Shown here: positions 56-5,248 of the stretch, in pieces
Layout of the letters: every line of letters begins with the position of its first letter
Numbering within the stretch: the stretch's first letter is position 1
Source of the DNA: an uncultured Caulobacteraceae bacterium
GTDB taxonomy: Bacteria; Pseudomonadota; Alphaproteobacteria; Caulobacterales; Caulobacteraceae
Length of the DNA: 5,840 nt
Direction of reading: 5' to 3'
Assembly: GCA_946480495.1 (NCBI GenBank)
Contig: CAMLKO010000076.1
Location: forward strand, 1 to 5,840
Position numbers and translations under genes: made by a program
The notes under the pieces: generated by a model
Told to the model about the DNA's origin: nothing
Seen by the model: only the letters and a program-made list of their open reading frames with translations
Database searches by the model: none

Positions 56-1048
56 TCACGGGACCAGCACCGCCGCGCCCGCGAACGCGCCCGAGCGCAG
101 GTCGTCCAGCGCCTCGTTGGCCTGATCCAGCCGATAGGTGTCGACGTGCGGTCTGACCCCGGCGCGGGCGGCTCTCGGCAGATACTCCAGCGCGTCCCGC
201 CGGGTCAGGTTGGCCACCGACACGATCCGCCGCTCTTCCCAGAGGATGTCGTAGGGAAACGACGGGATGTCGCTCATGTGGATGCCGCCGCAGACCACCG
301 TCCCGCCCTTGCGCACCGCCTTCAGCGCGGTGGGGACGAGCGCGCCGACCGGGGCGAAGATGATGGCGGCGTCCAGCGCCTCCGGCGGCGTCTCCTCCGA
401 CCCGCCGGCCCAGGCGCACCCCAGCTCCCGCGCCAGCCTCTGCGCACCCTCGTCGCCGGACCGGGTAAAGGCATAGACCGACTGGCCCTCGAAGATCGCC
501 AGTTGCGCCAGCAGGTGCGCCGCCGCGCCGAAGCCATAGAGGCCAAGCCGCTTGACCGGCCGCGCCTCCTGCGCCTTGCGCCAGGAGCGATAGCCGATCA
601 GCCCCGCGCACATCAGCGGCGCGGCCTGCGCGTCCGAAAAACCCTCCGGTATCGGAAAGCAGTAGTCGGCCCGCGCGATCACCACGTCCGCATAGCCGCC
701 GTCCCGCGTCCAGCCGGTGAAGCCCGGGTGGTCGCAGAGGTTCTCCTCGCCTTCGAGGCAGTAGCGGCAATGCCCGCAGGTCTCGCCCAGCCACGGCACG
801 CCCATCCGTTGGCCGGCCTCGACGCCGGTCACGCCATCGCCCATCGCCTCCACCACGCCCACGATTTCGTGGCCGAGGATCACCGGCGAGCGGCGCGGCG
901 GCAGCTCCCCGTCGGCGATGTGGAGATCGGTGCGGCAGACCCCGCAGGCCTTCACCCGAAGCCGAAGCTCGCCCGGCCCCGGCTCCGGATCGGACCGTGT
1001 CTCTTCGGCAAGCCGTGCGCCCGGCGAGGCGAGGATCATCGCGCGCAT
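56..1048 (-). CDS. Zinc-dependent alcohol dehydrogenase (MDR superfamily), 330 aa
   Basis: Medium-chain, zinc-dependent dehydrogenase expected to interconvert a primary alcohol and its aldehyde in the cytoplasm. The N-terminal GroES-like domain (about 1-150) shows all the expected metal ligands: catalytic zinc at C38 (GVC), H60-E61 (GHE) and C147 (LMCAG), and structural zinc at C91, C94, C97 and C105. The Rossmann domain starts near 168 with YGFGAAAH in place of a strict GxGxxG, a variant I associate with a bacterial ADH subgroup often found near pta/ackA. The second strand ends VYAFTRS, without the acidic residue typical of NAD preference, so NADP(H) use is possible (inference). The ATG at 1048 has no clear Shine-Dalgarno; a second ATG lies three codons in. 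Length is normal and the frame intact. It is divergent from the pta-ackA operon, which suggests shared control and a role in acetaldehyde/ethanol metabolism. The exact substrate cannot be read from sequence. Confidence 0.93.
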   Translation of the reverse strand: MRAMILASPGARLAEETRSDPEPGPGELRLRVKACGVCRTDLHIADGELPPRRSPVILGHEIVGVVEAMGDGVTGVEAGQRMGVPWLGETCGHCRYCLEGEENLCDHPGFTGWTRDGGYADVVIARADYCFPIPEGFSDAQAAPLMCAGLIGYRSWRKAQEARPVKRLGLYGFGAAAHLLAQLAIFEGQSVYAFTRSGDEGAQRLARELGCAWAGGSEETPPEALDAAIIFAPVGALVPTALKAVRKGGTVVCGGIHMSDIPSFPYDILWEERRIVSVANLTRRDALEYLPRAARAGVRPHVDTYRLDQANEALDDLRSGAFAGAAVLVP

Positions 1049-1064
1049 GGTTTCAGACTAGCAG

Positions 1065-1110
1065 AAAAGAAAAGCCCCGCGGCGATCTGGGGGGAGTGGG
1101 GCCGCGGGGC
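1065..1110 (-). terminator. Terminator- or attenuator-like hairpin with U-tract in the dehydrogenase leader
   Basis: Read on the minus strand, a perfect 10-bp GC-only stem (arms 1110-1101 and 1083-1074, 17-base C-rich loop) is followed directly by TTTTCTTTT (1073-1065). This is the layout of an intrinsic terminator. It ends 16 bases before the dehydrogenase start codon at 1048, so it does not sit at a gene end. It could stop or attenuate transcription entering the dehydrogenase from the right, or the A/T-rich tract could instead belong to a promoter that starts downstream of the hairpin. On the plus strand no T-tract follows the hairpin. The structure is seen directly; the regulatory role is inference. 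Confidence 0.45.
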
Positions 1111-1162
1111 GTCATCAGGGGTAGGCCCCCACGGCGATTGGGGGGAGTGTCCGTGGGGGCCT
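1074..1162. repeat. Two tandem palindromic hairpin elements sharing a G-rich loop
   Basis: Copy A (1074-1110) has perfectly complementary 10-base arms GCCCCGCGGC and GCCGCGGGGC. Copy B (1123-1162) has perfectly complementary 12-base arms AGGCCCCCACGG and CCGTGGGGGCCT. The copies share the core CGGCGAT-(C)-TGGGGGGAGTG at 1080-1098 and 1132-1149, identical except for one inserted C, about 52 bases apart. Within the stem one position is G:C in A (1079) and A:T in B (1131 with 1154), a compensatory change that keeps pairing. The plus strand shows G6 loops; the minus strand shows C-rich loops (CACTCCCCCC). The element could be a structured leader RNA, a protein-binding palindrome, or two copies of a dispersed REP-like repeat. 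I cannot assign it to a named family. Confidence 0.8.
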
Positions 1163-1180
1163 CTGCATGTCAGGCCGGGT

Positions 1181-1203
1181 TGAGGTGCCTTTATGCACAC
1201 TCA
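1181..1203. promoter_or_regulatory. Bulged inverted repeat, possible operator
   Basis: Left arm TGAGGTGC (1181-1188) pairs with right arm GCAC-a-CTCA (1195-1203), giving 8 pairs with a single bulged A at 1199 and a 6-base centre CTTTAT. It lies in the divergent intergenic region, between the tandem hairpins and the pta start. The symmetry is visible, but whether it is a DNA operator, an RNA hairpin or chance is not decided. No regulator gene lies in the window. Confidence 0.3.
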
Positions 1204-1230
1204 CGTTGCATCGGCCGCGACGCTTCGTCT

Positions 1231-1244
1231 TTGCGCGCGATCAA
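1231..1244. promoter_or_regulatory. FixK/FNR-type box candidate
   Basis: The 14-mer TTGCGCGCGATCAA matches the alphaproteobacterial FixK2 consensus TTG(A/C)-N6-(T/G)CAA in full, and the classical FNR palindrome TTGAT-N4-ATCAA at 8 of 10 fixed positions. It is centred 43 bases upstream of the pta ATG and about 190 bases upstream of the dehydrogenase ATG. Microoxic induction would suit an acetate/ethanol fermentation module. However, a class II site (centre near -41.5) would put the pta transcript start at about 1279, downstream of its ribosome binding site, so the box may serve the dehydrogenase, use other spacing, or be coincidental. No convincing -35/-10 pair was found. Confidence 0.4.
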
Positions 1245-1270
1245 ATCTTGGGGCCTTCTTACCGACGAAA

Positions 1271-1276
1271 AGGAGG
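1271..1276 (+). promoter_or_regulatory. Strong ribosome binding site of the phosphate acetyltransferase gene
   Basis: AGGAGG, a full match to the Shine-Dalgarno core, lies 4 bases before the ATG at 1281. This decides the start against the longer open frame that extends upstream to 1167, whose extra residues run through the 1181-1203 inverted repeat and the FixK-like box and look non-coding. Confidence 0.88.
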
Positions 1277-1280
1277 CCGC

Positions 1281-2222
1281 ATGACCAAAGCCCCGCCCGC
1301 CCGCCTGGACGACCTCATCGCCAGGGCCCGGAACCTGCCCAAGCTGACCGCCGCCATCGCCCATCCCTGCGATCCGGCCTCGATCGAAGGCGCGGCCGAA
1401 GCGGCGCGGCTGGGCTTCATCGAGCCGGTGCTGATCGGGCCGGAGGCGAAGATTCGCGCCGCCGCGGAGGAGGCGAAGACCGACATCTCCGCCTTCCGCC
1501 TCGTCGTCACGCCCCACAGCCACGCCGCCGCCGCGCAGGCCGTCGCCATGGTGCGGGCCGGGGAGGCCGAGATCCTCGTGAAGGGCTCGCTGCACACCGA
1601 CGAGCTGATGAGCTGCGTGGTCGACGCCGAGTGTGGCCTGCGCACCGACCGGCGGATCAGCCATGTGTTCGTCATCGACCTGGCCGCCTATCCGCGCCTG
1701 CTGCTGATCACCGACGCGGCGGTGAACATCGCCCCCACGCTCGAGGAGAAGCGCGACATCGTCCAGAACGCCATCGACCTCGCCCGGGCCATCGGCGTGG
1801 CGCGGCCGAAGGTGGCGATCCTCTCGGCCGTCGAGACGGTCACCTCCAAGCTGAAGTCGACCATCGACGCCGCCGCGCTCTGCAAGATGGCCGACCGCGG
1901 CCAGATCACCGGCGGCGACCTGGAAGGCCCACTCGCCTTCGACAACGCCATCAGCCTGGAAGCGGCGAAGGAAAAGCACATCGACGGCGACGTCGCCGGA
2001 CAGGCCGACATCCTCGTCGTGCCCGACCTGGAGGCCGGCAACATGCTGGCCAAGCAGCTGACCTTCCTGGGCGGCGCGGAATCGGCGGGCATCGTGCTCG
2101 GCGCCCGCGCGCCCATCGCGCTGACCAGCCGGGCCGACAGCGTCGAGGCGCGGGTGGCGTCGTATGCGCTGGCGGCCCTGCTCGCGCACCGGCGCCCGCA
2201 CGACAAGCCCGTCGCCGGATGA
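1281..2222 (+). CDS. pta: Phosphate acetyltransferase (PTA/PTB family), 313 aa
   Basis: Catalyses acetyl-CoA + phosphate to acetyl phosphate + CoA in the cytoplasm, the first step of the Pta-AckA pathway. The whole protein is one PTA/PTB domain. Recognisable segments are ILVKGSLHT (98-106), the core around LLLITDAAVNIAPTLEEKRD (140-159), the PKVAILSAVE stretch (176-185), ADRGQITGG and GPLAFDNAISLEAA (204-229), the ADILVVPDLEAGNMLAKQL stretch (242-260), and LTSRADS (281-287) with the Ser-Arg pair typical of the active site. It resembles the C-terminal half of 'bifunctional enoyl-CoA hydratase/phosphate acetyltransferase' proteins but lacks their N-terminal MaoC-like hydratase domain, and it lacks the N-terminal regulatory domains of E. 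coli Pta. Its TGA overlaps the ackA ATG (ATGA), so the two are co-translated. A phosphate butyryltransferase or propionyl-CoA activity cannot be excluded from sequence, but the acetate kinase partner favours acetyl-CoA. Confidence 0.92.
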   Translation: MTKAPPARLDDLIARARNLPKLTAAIAHPCDPASIEGAAEAARLGFIEPVLIGPEAKIRAAAEEAKTDISAFRLVVTPHSHAAAAQAVAMVRAGEAEILVKGSLHTDELMSCVVDAECGLRTDRRISHVFVIDLAAYPRLLLITDAAVNIAPTLEEKRDIVQNAIDLARAIGVARPKVAILSAVETVTSKLKSTIDAAALCKMADRGQITGGDLEGPLAFDNAISLEAAKEKHIDGDVAGQADILVVPDLEAGNMLAKQLTFLGGAESAGIVLGARAPIALTSRADSVEARVASYALAALLAHRRPHDKPVAG

Positions 2223-3376
2223 AGACGGTCCTGGCCCTCAACGCCGGTTCGGCCACGCTGAAGTTCGCGCTCTACCGTGCGGACAGGCTTCAGCTTTTGG
2301 CGCGAGGGCTGGTCGACCACTGGGGCGCGGACGGCCAGCATCTGGTCATCACCGGCGGCGCCCACGCGCCGCTCTTCGAGGGCGAAATCGCGGGCGACGC
2401 CGAGGCCGCCATCGTCTTCATCCTGGACTGGCAACACCGCCAGTGGCCGGACGCCGAGGTCGCCGTCGTCGGCCACCGCATCGTCCATGGCGGCGCCGAC
2501 TATCGCGGCCCCGTCCTGGTCACGCCGGACGTCATGGAAAGGCTGGAGGCCCTCACCTCGCTCGCGCCCCTGCACCAGCCCGCCGGCCTCGCGGGTCTTA
2601 GGCTCGCCCAGCACGCCTGCCCGGGCGTTCCGCAGGTGGCGAGCTTCGACACCGCCTTCCACCACACCATGTCGGACACCGCCGCCCGCATTGCGCTCCC
2701 TCGTGAGTTCGAGGCGCAGGGCATCCGCCGCTACGGCTTCCACGGCCTCTCCTACGCCTACATCGCCGGCCGGCTGCAGGCGCTCGATCCCGCGCTGGCG
2801 AAGGGCCGCGTCATCGTCGCCCACCTGGGCAGCGGCGCCAGCCTCTGCGCCATGCACGAGGGCCGCAGCGTCGATACGACCATGGGCTTCTCGGCGCTGG
2901 ACGGCCTCGTCATGGGCACGCGCACCGGCAGCATCGACCCCGGCGTCCTCCTCCACCTGCTCGACCACGGCATGTCGGCGAGCCAGCTTTCCAACCTGCT
3001 CTATCGCCGCTCGGGCCTGCTCGGCGTCTCGGGGATCAGCGCCGACATGCGCGTGCTGCTGGCCAGCGATCAGGTGCATGCGAAGGAAGCCATCGACCTC
3101 TACGTCCGCCGCATCGTCCGCGAGACCGGCGCGCTCACCGCCCTGCTCGGCGGCCTCGACGGCCTCGTCTTCACCGCCGGCGTCGGGGAGAACGCCCAAT
3201 TCATACGAACTCTCGTCTGCAAGAAGCTGGAATGGCTTGGCTTTTCCATTGATGAAGCTGCCAACGCACAAGGCGGCGAACGCCAGATCGGCGCCGCAGG
3301 CTCAAAGCCCGTCTGGATCATCCCGACCGACGAGGAACAGGTCATCGCGCGCGAGGCCGTCGCCACCCCAATCTGA
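2219..3376 (+). CDS. ackA: Acetate kinase (acetate/propionate kinase family), 385 aa
   Basis: Transfers phosphate from acetyl phosphate to ADP, giving acetate and ATP (reversible); second enzyme of the Pta-AckA pathway. The ASKHA-fold motifs occur in order: NAGSATLKF (8-16, with N8), GHRIVHGG (85-92, R87), APLHQPAG (116-123, H119), FDTAFH (143-148, D144), GFHG (173-176, H175), HLGSGAS (202-208), GTRTGSIDPG (233-242, R235), AGVGEN (320-325) and IPTDEE (368-373, carboxylate near E372). These align with the catalytic Asn, Arg, His, Asp, His, Arg and Glu known from Methanosarcina acetate kinase. Some flanking residues differ from the textbook signature (NAGSAT for NxGSSS, HQPAG for HNPxN, HGLSY for HGTSH). 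The last resembles alphaproteobacterial acetate kinases as I recall them. No clear Shine-Dalgarno precedes the ATG, fitting translational coupling to pta. Near the 3' end a stretch is unusually AT-rich. The gene ends 3 bases from the convergent ABC exporter. Confidence 0.95.
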   Translation: MKTVLALNAGSATLKFALYRADRLQLLARGLVDHWGADGQHLVITGGAHAPLFEGEIAGDAEAAIVFILDWQHRQWPDAEVAVVGHRIVHGGADYRGPVLVTPDVMERLEALTSLAPLHQPAGLAGLRLAQHACPGVPQVASFDTAFHHTMSDTAARIALPREFEAQGIRRYGFHGLSYAYIAGRLQALDPALAKGRVIVAHLGSGASLCAMHEGRSVDTTMGFSALDGLVMGTRTGSIDPGVLLHLLDHGMSASQLSNLLYRRSGLLGVSGISADMRVLLASDQVHAKEAIDLYVRRIVRETGALTALLGGLDGLVFTAGVGENAQFIRTLVCKKLEWLGFSIDEAANAQGGERQIGAAGSKPVWIIPTDEEQVIAREAVATPI

Positions 3377-3379
3377 CGC

Positions 3380-5248
3380 TCAGGCCTGCTCCAGCTGCTC
3401 CCGTTCCCGCGTCTGACGCCGCCAAAGCGCGGCGTACTCGCCCGGGCGGGCCAGCAGGTCTTCGTGGCGGCCGCGCTCGACGATCTTGCCGCGGCGCAGG
3501 ACGACGATCTCGTCGGCGTCGGCGATGGTGGAGAGGCGGTGGGCCACCACCAGCATCGTGCGGCCCGCCTTCGCCTTGCGCAGGGTGGCCTGGATGGCGG
3601 CTTCCGTGCGGCTGTCGAGCGCGCTGGTCGCCTCGTCCAGGATCAGCACGCGCGGATCGGCCAGCAGCGCCCGCGCCAGCCCCACCCGCTGGCGCTCGCC
3701 GCCGGAGAGCTTCAGCCCCCGCTCGCCGACCTTGGTCGCCATGCCTTCCGGCAACGCCTCGATGAAGTCGCCGAGCTCGGCGGCCCGCGCGGCGTCCCAG
3801 ACTTCTTCCTCCGTTGCGCCCGGCCGTCCGAAGGCGATGTTGTGGTAGAGGGTGTCGTTGAACAGCGCCACGTCCTGCGGCACCAGCGCCATCGCCCGCC
3901 TCAGCGCCGGACCCTTGAGGTGGCGCAGGTCGACGCCGTCGATCGTCACGCGGCCCTCCTGCGGATCGATCAGCCGCAGCGCCAGCCTGACCAGCGTCGT
4001 CTTGCCCGCGCCCGAAGGCCCGACCAGCGCCACCGTCTGCCCCGGCTCGGCGTGGAAGCTCACGTCCCGCAGGCCCTCCGCCCGTGCGCCGTGGCGGAAG
4101 GAGACGTGCTCGAACACCACCTCCCCGCCCCGGCGACCCGTCGCCGGCAGGTCGACGGCGTCGGGCGCCTCCACGATGTCCGGCTTCTGCCGCTGCAGCT
4201 CGAGCATGGCCTCCATGTCGATCAGCGACTGGCGGATCTCGCGATAGGCGAAGCCCAGGATGTTCAGCGGCCCATACAGGCCGATCAGGATCAGGATGGA
4301 GGCGGTCACGTCCCCCGGCCCCATCTTCCCCGCCGCCGCCTCGAACCCGGCCAGCACCGCCATGATCGCCAGGCCCACGCTCATGATCGCCGTCTGCACC
4401 ACGTTCAGCAGCGACAGCGAGGTCGTCGCCTTCACCTGGGCGTTGGCGTAGGCCGTCAGCGACTGGTTGTAGGTGGCGACCGCCCGGTCCTCGGCCCCGA
4501 AGGCCTTCACCGTCTCGTAGTTCAAGAGCGCATCCACCGCCCGGCCGGACGCCTCCGCGTCGGCCTCGTTGAGCGCGCGGCGGTGGGCAATGCGCCAATC
4601 CGAAATGGCGAAGGTGATCGCGCCGTAGATCACCACCGTCACCACCGCCGTTACAGCGAACCGCCAGTCGTACTTCTTGGCCAGCACGACCGCGGCGATG
4701 ACCAGCTCGATGGCCGTGGGGCCGAGGTTGAAGATCAGGCTGCGCAGCAGGAAATCGATCGACCGCGCGCCCCGCTCGATCACCCGCGACAGCGAACCGG
4801 TCCGCTTGGTCTGGTGAAAGTCCACCGACAGCGCCAGCGCATGGGCGAAGGTCTCGGCCGCCGAGCGGTTCTGAGCCGCCTGCGCCACCGGCGTGAAGAT
4901 CGCATCCCGCGCCTGCGGCGCCGCCGCCGACAGGAACCGGATCATCGCCCAGCCGATCGCCAGCCCGCCGAAGGCCGCGCTCACCTGCACCGCCGTGCTC
5001 TGCCCGTGCCCCAGCTTGTTCACCGCCGCGCCGAGCAGGAGCGGCGCCATCACGCCCAGCACCTTGCCCGCCAGCGTCAGGCCCAGCGCCACGGTCAGCC
5101 GCCACCGCAGCCCCGGCGCGCGCGAGCGCAGCACCAGCCGGATCAGGTCCGCCATCGCCGGGAAGAAACGGATCGAAGCCCCGGCCGGCGCGACGGCGCC
5201 GTGAGCCGCTTCACGCCGCGACGGCGCCGAGGCGCGGACGTGGCTCAA
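3380..5248 (-). CDS. Atm1/ABCB7-type ABC exporter (fused permease and ATPase), 622 aa
   Basis: Inner-membrane half-transporter that should work as a homodimer. Numbering is from a TTG at 5248. Transmembrane segments occupy about 50-340. The part around HQTKRTGSLSRVIERG (145-160), the FLLRSLIFN stretch (166-174) and LLNYETVKAFG (241-251) is characteristic of the Atm1/ABCB7/HMT1 group rather than lipid A or multidrug exporters. The ATPase domain follows: Walker A GPSGAGKTT (410-418), Q-loop Q458, signature LSGGERQ (514-520), Walker B VLILDEA (534-540), H-loop H570. Characterised members export glutathione-derived compounds and link to Fe-S or metal homeostasis; W218-R219, R223/R224 and N282/Q285 lie where that family binds glutathione (inference). 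Start choice is open: TTG at 5248 overlaps the upstream stop as TTGA and has AAAGG 8 bases before it, and the following codons are G/C-rich at position 3; ATG at 5155 (MADLIRLV) has no ribosome site. It is last in its operon. Confidence 0.9.
   Translation of the reverse strand: MSHVRASAPSRREAAHGAVAPAGASIRFFPAMADLIRLVLRSRAPGLRWRLTVALGLTLAGKVLGVMAPLLLGAAVNKLGHGQSTAVQVSAAFGGLAIGWAMIRFLSAAAPQARDAIFTPVAQAAQNRSAAETFAHALALSVDFHQTKRTGSLSRVIERGARSIDFLLRSLIFNLGPTAIELVIAAVVLAKKYDWRFAVTAVVTVVIYGAITFAISDWRIAHRRALNEADAEASGRAVDALLNYETVKAFGAEDRAVATYNQSLTAYANAQVKATTSLSLLNVVQTAIMSVGLAIMAVLAGFEAAAGKMGPGDVTASILILIGLYGPLNILGFAYREIRQSLIDMEAMLELQRQKPDIVEAPDAVDLPATGRRGGEVVFEHVSFRHGARAEGLRDVSFHAEPGQTVALVGPSGAGKTTLVRLALRLIDPQEGRVTIDGVDLRHLKGPALRRAMALVPQDVALFNDTLYHNIAFGRPGATEEEVWDAARAAELGDFIEALPEGMATKVGERGLKLSGGERQRVGLARALLADPRVLILDEATSALDSRTEAAIQATLRKAKAGRTMLVVAHRLSTIADADEIVVLRRGKIVERGRHEDLLARPGEYAALWRRQTREREQLEQA

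Follow-up and report, generated by a model that had tools for sequence, protein, structure and literature searches.

Between the divergent genes for an alcohol dehydrogenase (adh) and a pta-type phosphate acyltransferase, the window (the whole 5,840-nt stretch of DNA analysed here) carries two adjacent hairpins whose loops are nearly identical and whose stems differ. This raises the question of what kind of element the hairpins form, on which strand it is read, and which of the two genes, if either, it belongs to. Judging from its sequence, the element is probably a short regulatory RNA with C-rich loops that could grip G-rich ribosome-binding sites. Coordinates are collected in Table 1. The fifth gene of the window encodes a hypothetical protein whose named relatives come mainly from Caulobacter and Caulobacteraceae, its best named match being from a MAG labelled Ignavibacteriales.

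Table 1. Genes and sequence features of the window, with predicted features marked as such
Feature	Position	Strand	Remarks
adh, zinc-dependent alcohol dehydrogenase gene (TIGR02822)	56..1048	-	Same strand as the hairpin element and 3' of it
pta-type phosphate acyltransferase gene	1281..2222	+	Divergent from adh
Acetate/propionate kinase gene	2219..3376	+	
ABC transporter gene	3383-5248	-	
First hairpin of the putative RNA	1123..1162	-	12-bp stem, 16-nt loop ACACUCCCCCCAAUCG
Second hairpin, stem of the intrinsic terminator	1074..1110	-	10-bp stem, 17-nt loop CCCACUCCCCCCAGAUC
U-run UUUUCUUUU completing the terminator	1065..1073	-	Read from the sequence; L118 has the same tail
Spacer between the hairpins, ACCCCUGAUGAC	1111..1122	-	12 nt; the L118 terminator is preceded by the similar spacer ACCCCGGAAGAC
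FixK/FNR-type box TTGATCGCGCGCAA	1231..1244	-	Match to the assumed consensus; similar box TTGATCCAGCGCAA 5' of the related element in L236
Candidate -10 box CAACGT of a class II FixK/FNR promoter	1203..1208	-	Predicted
Alternative -10, CATAAA	1195-1190	-	

Structure and strand of the hairpins

The sequence confirms both perfect hairpins where the original prediction had placed them. Read on the plus strand, the hairpin at 1074-1110 consists of GCCCCGCGGC, a 17-nt loop and GCCGCGGGGC, and that at 1123-1162 of AGGCCCCCACGG, a 16-nt loop and CCGTGGGGGCCT; the common core CGGCGAT(C)TGGGGGGAGTG begins at 1080 and again 52 bases further on, at 1132. The compensatory swap that had been proposed is also present (G1079:C1105 versus A1131:T1154) and is the sole pair changed on both sides, a second compensated difference being one extra C:G pair in one of the stems. 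Given that 231 of 500 shuffles reach this swap, the two copies alone lend no statistical support to covariation. No other perfect Watson-Crick hairpin of at least 10 bp (loop up to 20) exists in all 5,840 bases, and 300 dinucleotide shuffles, a control that left loop identity outside its criteria, gave a mean of 0.47 such hairpins per window and zero pairs within 60 nt. Repeat finding with default seeds misses the hairpin at 1074-1110.

On the minus strand the order is hairpin (1162-1123), 12-nt spacer, hairpin (1110-1074) and U-run (1073-1065), and the loops read CACUCCCCCCAAUCG and CACUCCCCCCAGAUC, with CACUCCCCCC as their common part. The U-run, which the original prediction had overlooked, stands behind a hairpin on the minus strand only; on the plus strand it is absent behind either one. 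Our consensus terminator scan, with its loop limit of 8, is blind to this terminator. The folding z-score over 1060-1180 is -5.2 for the minus strand versus -2.4 for the plus strand. We conclude that the RNA of the element most likely derives from the minus strand.

Because the terminator lies on the minus strand, the earlier suggestion of Shine-Dalgarno-like loops on the plus strand is disfavoured. Its most explicit form would be a pta leader with G-rich loops that sponge C-rich sRNAs, comparable to the G/A-rich loop of CrfA, for which sponging is documented (excerpt of PMC12559287). The plus strand does fold into both hairpins too, more weakly (-2.4 sd) and with no terminator of its own.

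Covariance-model and pattern searches

No Rfam family reaches threshold on the window. The top three scores on 1040-1290 belong to Scr3202 (RF02833; 31.9 bits against a gathering score of 52), ar14 (27.5 bits, far under its gathering score of 58.8) and 6C (RF01066; 23.8 against 47 bits), all on the minus strand, all below threshold and all sRNAs with C-rich loops. Weaker matches in this interval include NsiR1 and suhB; CcsR1 gives no match there, and CC3664 is unlisted even at E<=10. That families with C-rich loops score best is in keeping with the loose minus-strand likeness to CcsR-type sRNAs noticed earlier.

Of 388 Caulobacteraceae genomes, a tandem model (R2) matched 44 with a cut-off of E<=0.1 and 18 with a cut-off of E<=1e-3, its best E-value being 2.7e-6; a reversed decoy (R3) matched 12 and 0. 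These E-values are rough, and the contrast between model and decoy is the point. Reversed sequence served as the decoy because the reverse complement is equivalent on double-stranded DNA. Among 200 genomes drawn from the order, R2 matched seven at E<=1e-3. The search of the 388 genomes with R2 is lossy, as G169, the genome containing L236, went unreported. C-rich-loop hairpins occur in 13 of the 18 stronger Caulobacteraceae matches, namely seven homologues of the sRNA CC3664 (L118, L122-L124 and L129-L131) and L114, L116, L117, L119, L120 and L121; the remaining five (L115, L125-L128) are without a C-rich loop. A single-hairpin model (R1) found the window alone among four sources, and later L124 and L236 as well.

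To gauge the background, we scanned 1.2 Mb from a single Caulobacteraceae genome. Of its 68 terminator-like sites, one has a loop of at least 8 with a C-run of at least 4, and one such a loop with a G-run; tails disregarded, the same DNA has 27 C-loop hairpins on its two strands. Across 114 sources (783 kb) we counted 22 C-loop hairpins versus 12 in reversed sequence; the excess is accounted for by the window, with two, and L081-L083, with nine.

These searches also bear on the view that the locus is a REP-like or protein-binding palindrome in intergenic DNA, which the presence of two palindromes within the intergenic region would fit. Against it, the U-run is one-sided, the likeness to RNA families is confined to one strand, and the exact pattern ACTCCCCCC-N1-2-ATCG occurs outside the window just once in 2.35 Mb of loci, inside an sRNA locus. 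Neither the REP element nor the regulator-bound palindrome of the original prediction gained support, and we hold this explanation to be very improbable.

Relation to the Caulobacter sRNA CC3664

The seven CC3664 homologues (RF01530) score 31-61 bits: L122 60.9, L130 60.3, L118 55.5, L129 49.4, L124 48.0, L123 44.0 and L131 31.1, so that two of the seven reach the gathering score of 60. In an alignment of six of them (L124, found later, was left out), both partners differ in 7 of 40 predicted pairs, while one or two sequences break several of the pairs.

In L124 the loop of the CC3664 terminator, CACTCCCCCCAATCG, matches that of the window hairpin at 1123-1162 exactly across 15 nt and sits on a different stem. 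A given 15-mer is expected 0.002 times per 4-Mb genome, and about 0.8 chance occurrences would be expected anywhere across 388 genomes, so the telling part is its location in a CC3664 terminator loop. One stem pair of L124 is A-C on the C-loop strand and G-T on the opposite strand. This pair favours the plus strand, and with it the sponge in a pta leader, whereas the annotation of CC3664 places it on the strand with the C-rich loops.

The window element has in common with CC3664 the bacterial family, a C-rich-loop terminator hairpin and a U-rich tail. Its hairpin at 1074-1110 resembles the terminators in L118 and L236, and L118 is similar in spacer and tail as well. The two differ in that the first hairpin of CC3664 is long and has loop CCUGAACAGCCCCCCCAGCCCC, its place in the window being taken by a second small module; CCUGAACAGCCCCCCCAGCCCC or a close variant is present in all seven CC3664 loci and absent from window positions 1040-1290, and the window element gives no RF01530 match. 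They also differ in setting, as CC3664 has a DUF2794 gene close by (confirmed in L118 and L124) and the neighbours of the window element are adh and pta. The gene on the terminator side varies among the CC3664 loci. We met no report on CC3664 in Caulobacter in the literature searched.

Conservation upstream of adh and pta

Relatives of adh were found in 54 of 318 genomes. We took 30 of these loci, 29 with upstream DNA, and added 20 shorter stretches (L274 with only about 100 nt), which gave 49 examined relatives; another five matches, which were partial or distant, were not included. A C-loop hairpin lies near the adh start and on the strand of adh in two of the 49, L236 (46 nt) and L239 (66 nt), compared with a chance expectation of about 0.14 in 49 stretches of 260 nt (from the density of 27 per 1.2 Mb on two strands). 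The other 47 are without the element; the 20 shorter stretches have neither a C-loop hairpin by the criteria applied nor an R2 match, and L234 has a weak C-loop hairpin 401 nt from adh.

The adh of L236 is 76% identical to that of the window, and the locus scores 21.3 bits with R2 (E 4.6e-4 over 31 sources). Both of its hairpins have C-rich loops: the first (2611-2582) consists of CCGGTC, loop CAGCCAATCTCCCCCCGA and GACCGG, and the second (2572-2534) has 11 bp and loop ATCCTCTCCCCCACCTC, followed by GCCUUUUCCUU. Here the first stem, of 6 bp, is missing from the lowest-energy fold, and the U-rich tail begins 3 nt past the second stem. L236 and the window also have in common TTTGATC--GCGCAAAG at the box and AGTCTGA--CCATG in the bases before the ATG. 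In L239, with an adh 75% identical to that of the window, a 10-bp C-loop hairpin (2590-2554, loop ACATCACTCCCCCGTGA) precedes a terminator (2549-2521) with 12 bp, a plain loop that is not C-rich, and six U.

Upstream of pta, no tandem C-loop hairpins occur in 110 loci (L020 being without upstream DNA). The element thus retains its position relative to adh and not to pta. Of the conservation expected upstream of either gene, only the part concerning adh was found, in 2 of 49 relatives, so that the refuting condition named with the original prediction did not come about. With nothing similar before pta we consider a plus-strand pta leader the least probable of the readings weighed here. The leader position proposed for the element stands, given the related element directly before adh in two relatives. 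Likewise, selection on an RNA structure is upheld by the contrast of R2 with its decoy, the link to CC3664, the Rfam likeness and the adh relatives.

FixK/FNR boxes and a candidate promoter

We take the FixK/FNR box to follow the consensus TTG[AC]-N6-[TG]CAA. The 260 nt before adh contain such a box in the window, in 15 of 29 relatives and in 2 of the 20 further ones, against a background of 0.006 per 260 nt (1.2 Mb of one genome); a 35% identical adh paralogue has no box upstream. Among the adh loci with a FixK/FNR-type box are L234, L235, L245, L251, L255-L257 and L261. The boxes in 15 of 29 Caulobacteraceae loci suggest that oxygen control of this dehydrogenase is common.

In the window, L236 and L239, the box is placed where it would be able to drive the RNA, that of L239 being inexact (TTGATCTGGATCAT, one base off the searched pattern and picked by eye). 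With what we take to be the spacing of class II FixK/FNR promoters, transcription in the window would start near 1196, and an RNA of about 132 nt (1196-1065) is predicted. In L236 and L239 the start predicted in this way is at most 5 nt from the first hairpin. A scan for sigma-70 consensus promoters gave no match here. FixK of C. crescentus is described as a hypoxia regulator in an excerpt of PMC3751524, and the literature searched, partly in excerpts, yielded no FixK-controlled sRNA of Caulobacter.

Since the terminator before adh would fit an attenuator as well, we keep as the main rival an attenuator in the adh leader, in which the FixK/FNR-driven transcript ends at the terminator unless a factor or a loop-bound RNA opens it. 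In its favour, each of three loci (the window, L236 and L239) has a terminator between box and adh on the adh strand, and the position is retained at adh rather than pta. However, 47 of 49 adh relatives are without such a leader, no competing anti-terminator fold is apparent, and the same loop recurs in the sRNA CC3664, whose neighbour on the terminator side varies by locus. We regard an attenuator as unlikely, and less likely than a trans-acting sRNA, which we consider the most likely function.

Proposed function

We read the element as an anti-Shine-Dalgarno-like C-loop RNA encoded between the promoter of adh and adh itself and presumably regulated by oxygen. The hairpins, the identity of their loops, the polarity of the terminator, the excess over the decoy, the relation to CC3664, the boxes and the adh-linked element in two relatives are features of the sequences; transcription, oxygen control, read-through, action in trans, targets and the sign of regulation are proposed on that basis. 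Taken together, it seems to us reasonably likely that a minus-strand C-loop RNA of about 130 nt is driven by FixK/FNR, ends at 1065 and acts in trans.

In this trans-acting scenario, the RNA would start at the FixK/FNR-type promoter (box 1244-1231) and end at the terminator before adh. It would be made along with adh when oxygen is scarce, adh being reached through partial read-through. The two hairpins may have diverged from a single module in which a strong stem presents the open loop CACUCCCCCC, and the second would double as terminator and second seed. Acting in trans, the loops could bind translation initiation regions at G-rich sequences (GGGGAGU or GGAG-like). Three precedents are described in excerpts of published work: NfeR1, with three redundant CCUCCUCCC loops, pairs with translation initiation regions (PMC10746234), GsrN pairs with a G-tract of katG (PMC5869019), and a CCCC loop of CcnA pairs with GGGG of the ctrA and gcrA leaders (PMC8959179). 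By analogy, the RNA would present two ACUCCCCCC seeds at low oxygen, and pairing would mostly block translation, as in NfeR1/ar14, and at times free it, as with GsrN on katG.

The general plan of the element is already known. In Alphaproteobacteria, the cuckoo RNAs (ar14/NfeR1, RF02344; CcsR1, RF02791; SmelA075/A099) consist of hairpins in tandem whose C-rich loops are constant and whose stems vary, according to excerpts of PMC3927594, PMC10746234 and PMC7143759. The window is like them in its tandem hairpins, near-identical loops and variable stems. It differs in the loop, as the cuckoo motif CCUCCUCCC is absent from the window, where the loops share CACUCCCCCC. The five genes scanned (NCBIfam; listed ORFs of at least 80 aa) do not include DUF1127, a gene reported beside many cuckoo RNAs. 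The families 6C and Scr3202, which we take to be actinobacterial and thus of another phylum, resemble the window in two hairpins with C-rich loops, a likeness that is likely convergent. In Caulobacter crescentus, GsrN and CcnA can be likened to the window by description only, for C-rich loops that pair with G-rich mRNA leaders (excerpts of PMC5869019 and PMC8959179).

As loop motif, score or synteny fails for each family, the element appears to be a fresh variant of the tandem C-loop plan that belongs to no single one. The original statement that it has no named family thus holds for the exact element; its kind does have named relatives, CC3664 and ar14. As a whole, the original interpretation is partly supported.

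FnrS of Escherichia coli, a member of another class of bacteria, is an sRNA under an FNR-type regulator. It is named in an excerpt of PMC11475020, and the window RNA would be like it in having an FNR-type regulator, with oxygen control predicted from the box. A bolder and distinctly tentative extension is that in Caulobacteraceae the adh promoter gives rise to a hypoxia-induced C-loop sRNA, an alphaproteobacterial functional counterpart of FnrS, whose seed-bearing terminator hairpin is a portable module that also forms the 3' end of CC3664 and occurs behind other genes; new sRNAs could then arise by capture and duplication of the module.

If correct, our reading would add Caulobacterales, with a different loop motif, to the bacteria that use the tandem C-loop sRNA plan and tie this plan to CC3664 through an exact loop match. 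It would also place a tandem C-loop RNA under oxygen control beside a fermentation gene. The seed ACUCCCCCC is defined sufficiently for target tests in the model genus.

Other loci with C-rich loops

The searches also returned loci of separate interest. The exact tandem pattern ACTCCCCCC-N28-58-ACTCCCCCC is present in 3 of 299 Caulobacteraceae genomes (L081-L083), which we set aside as a separate locus with three C-loop hairpins and no U-run. The three tandem hairpins are kept in all three genomes (L081 1536-1641, L082 1538-1643 and L083 1537-1642, plus strand); the strand with the C-rich loops has G-T pairs, and Rfam gives weak matches to 6C (L081, L082) and CcsR1 (L081). Among 12 stretches of viral contigs (L144-L155), ACTCCCCCCA recurs in several, spaced or inverted (e.g., L147, L149 and L151); these contigs were rejected as carriers of the element, as they have repeated motifs and the terminator/sRNA plan is absent.

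In L114, L116, L117 and L119 (e.g., L117 1484-1589, plus strand), C-loop hairpins and a terminator lie directly 3' of a response regulator gene, which was scanned in L117 only. The L117 locus has a weak CcsR1 match (27 bits, E 0.007), and the element of this group is possibly a 3'-UTR-derived sRNA. Finally, in L142 a C-loop terminator (1512-1552, minus strand) is located between genes of the AhpC/TSA and carboxymuconolactone-decarboxylase families, on the same strand.
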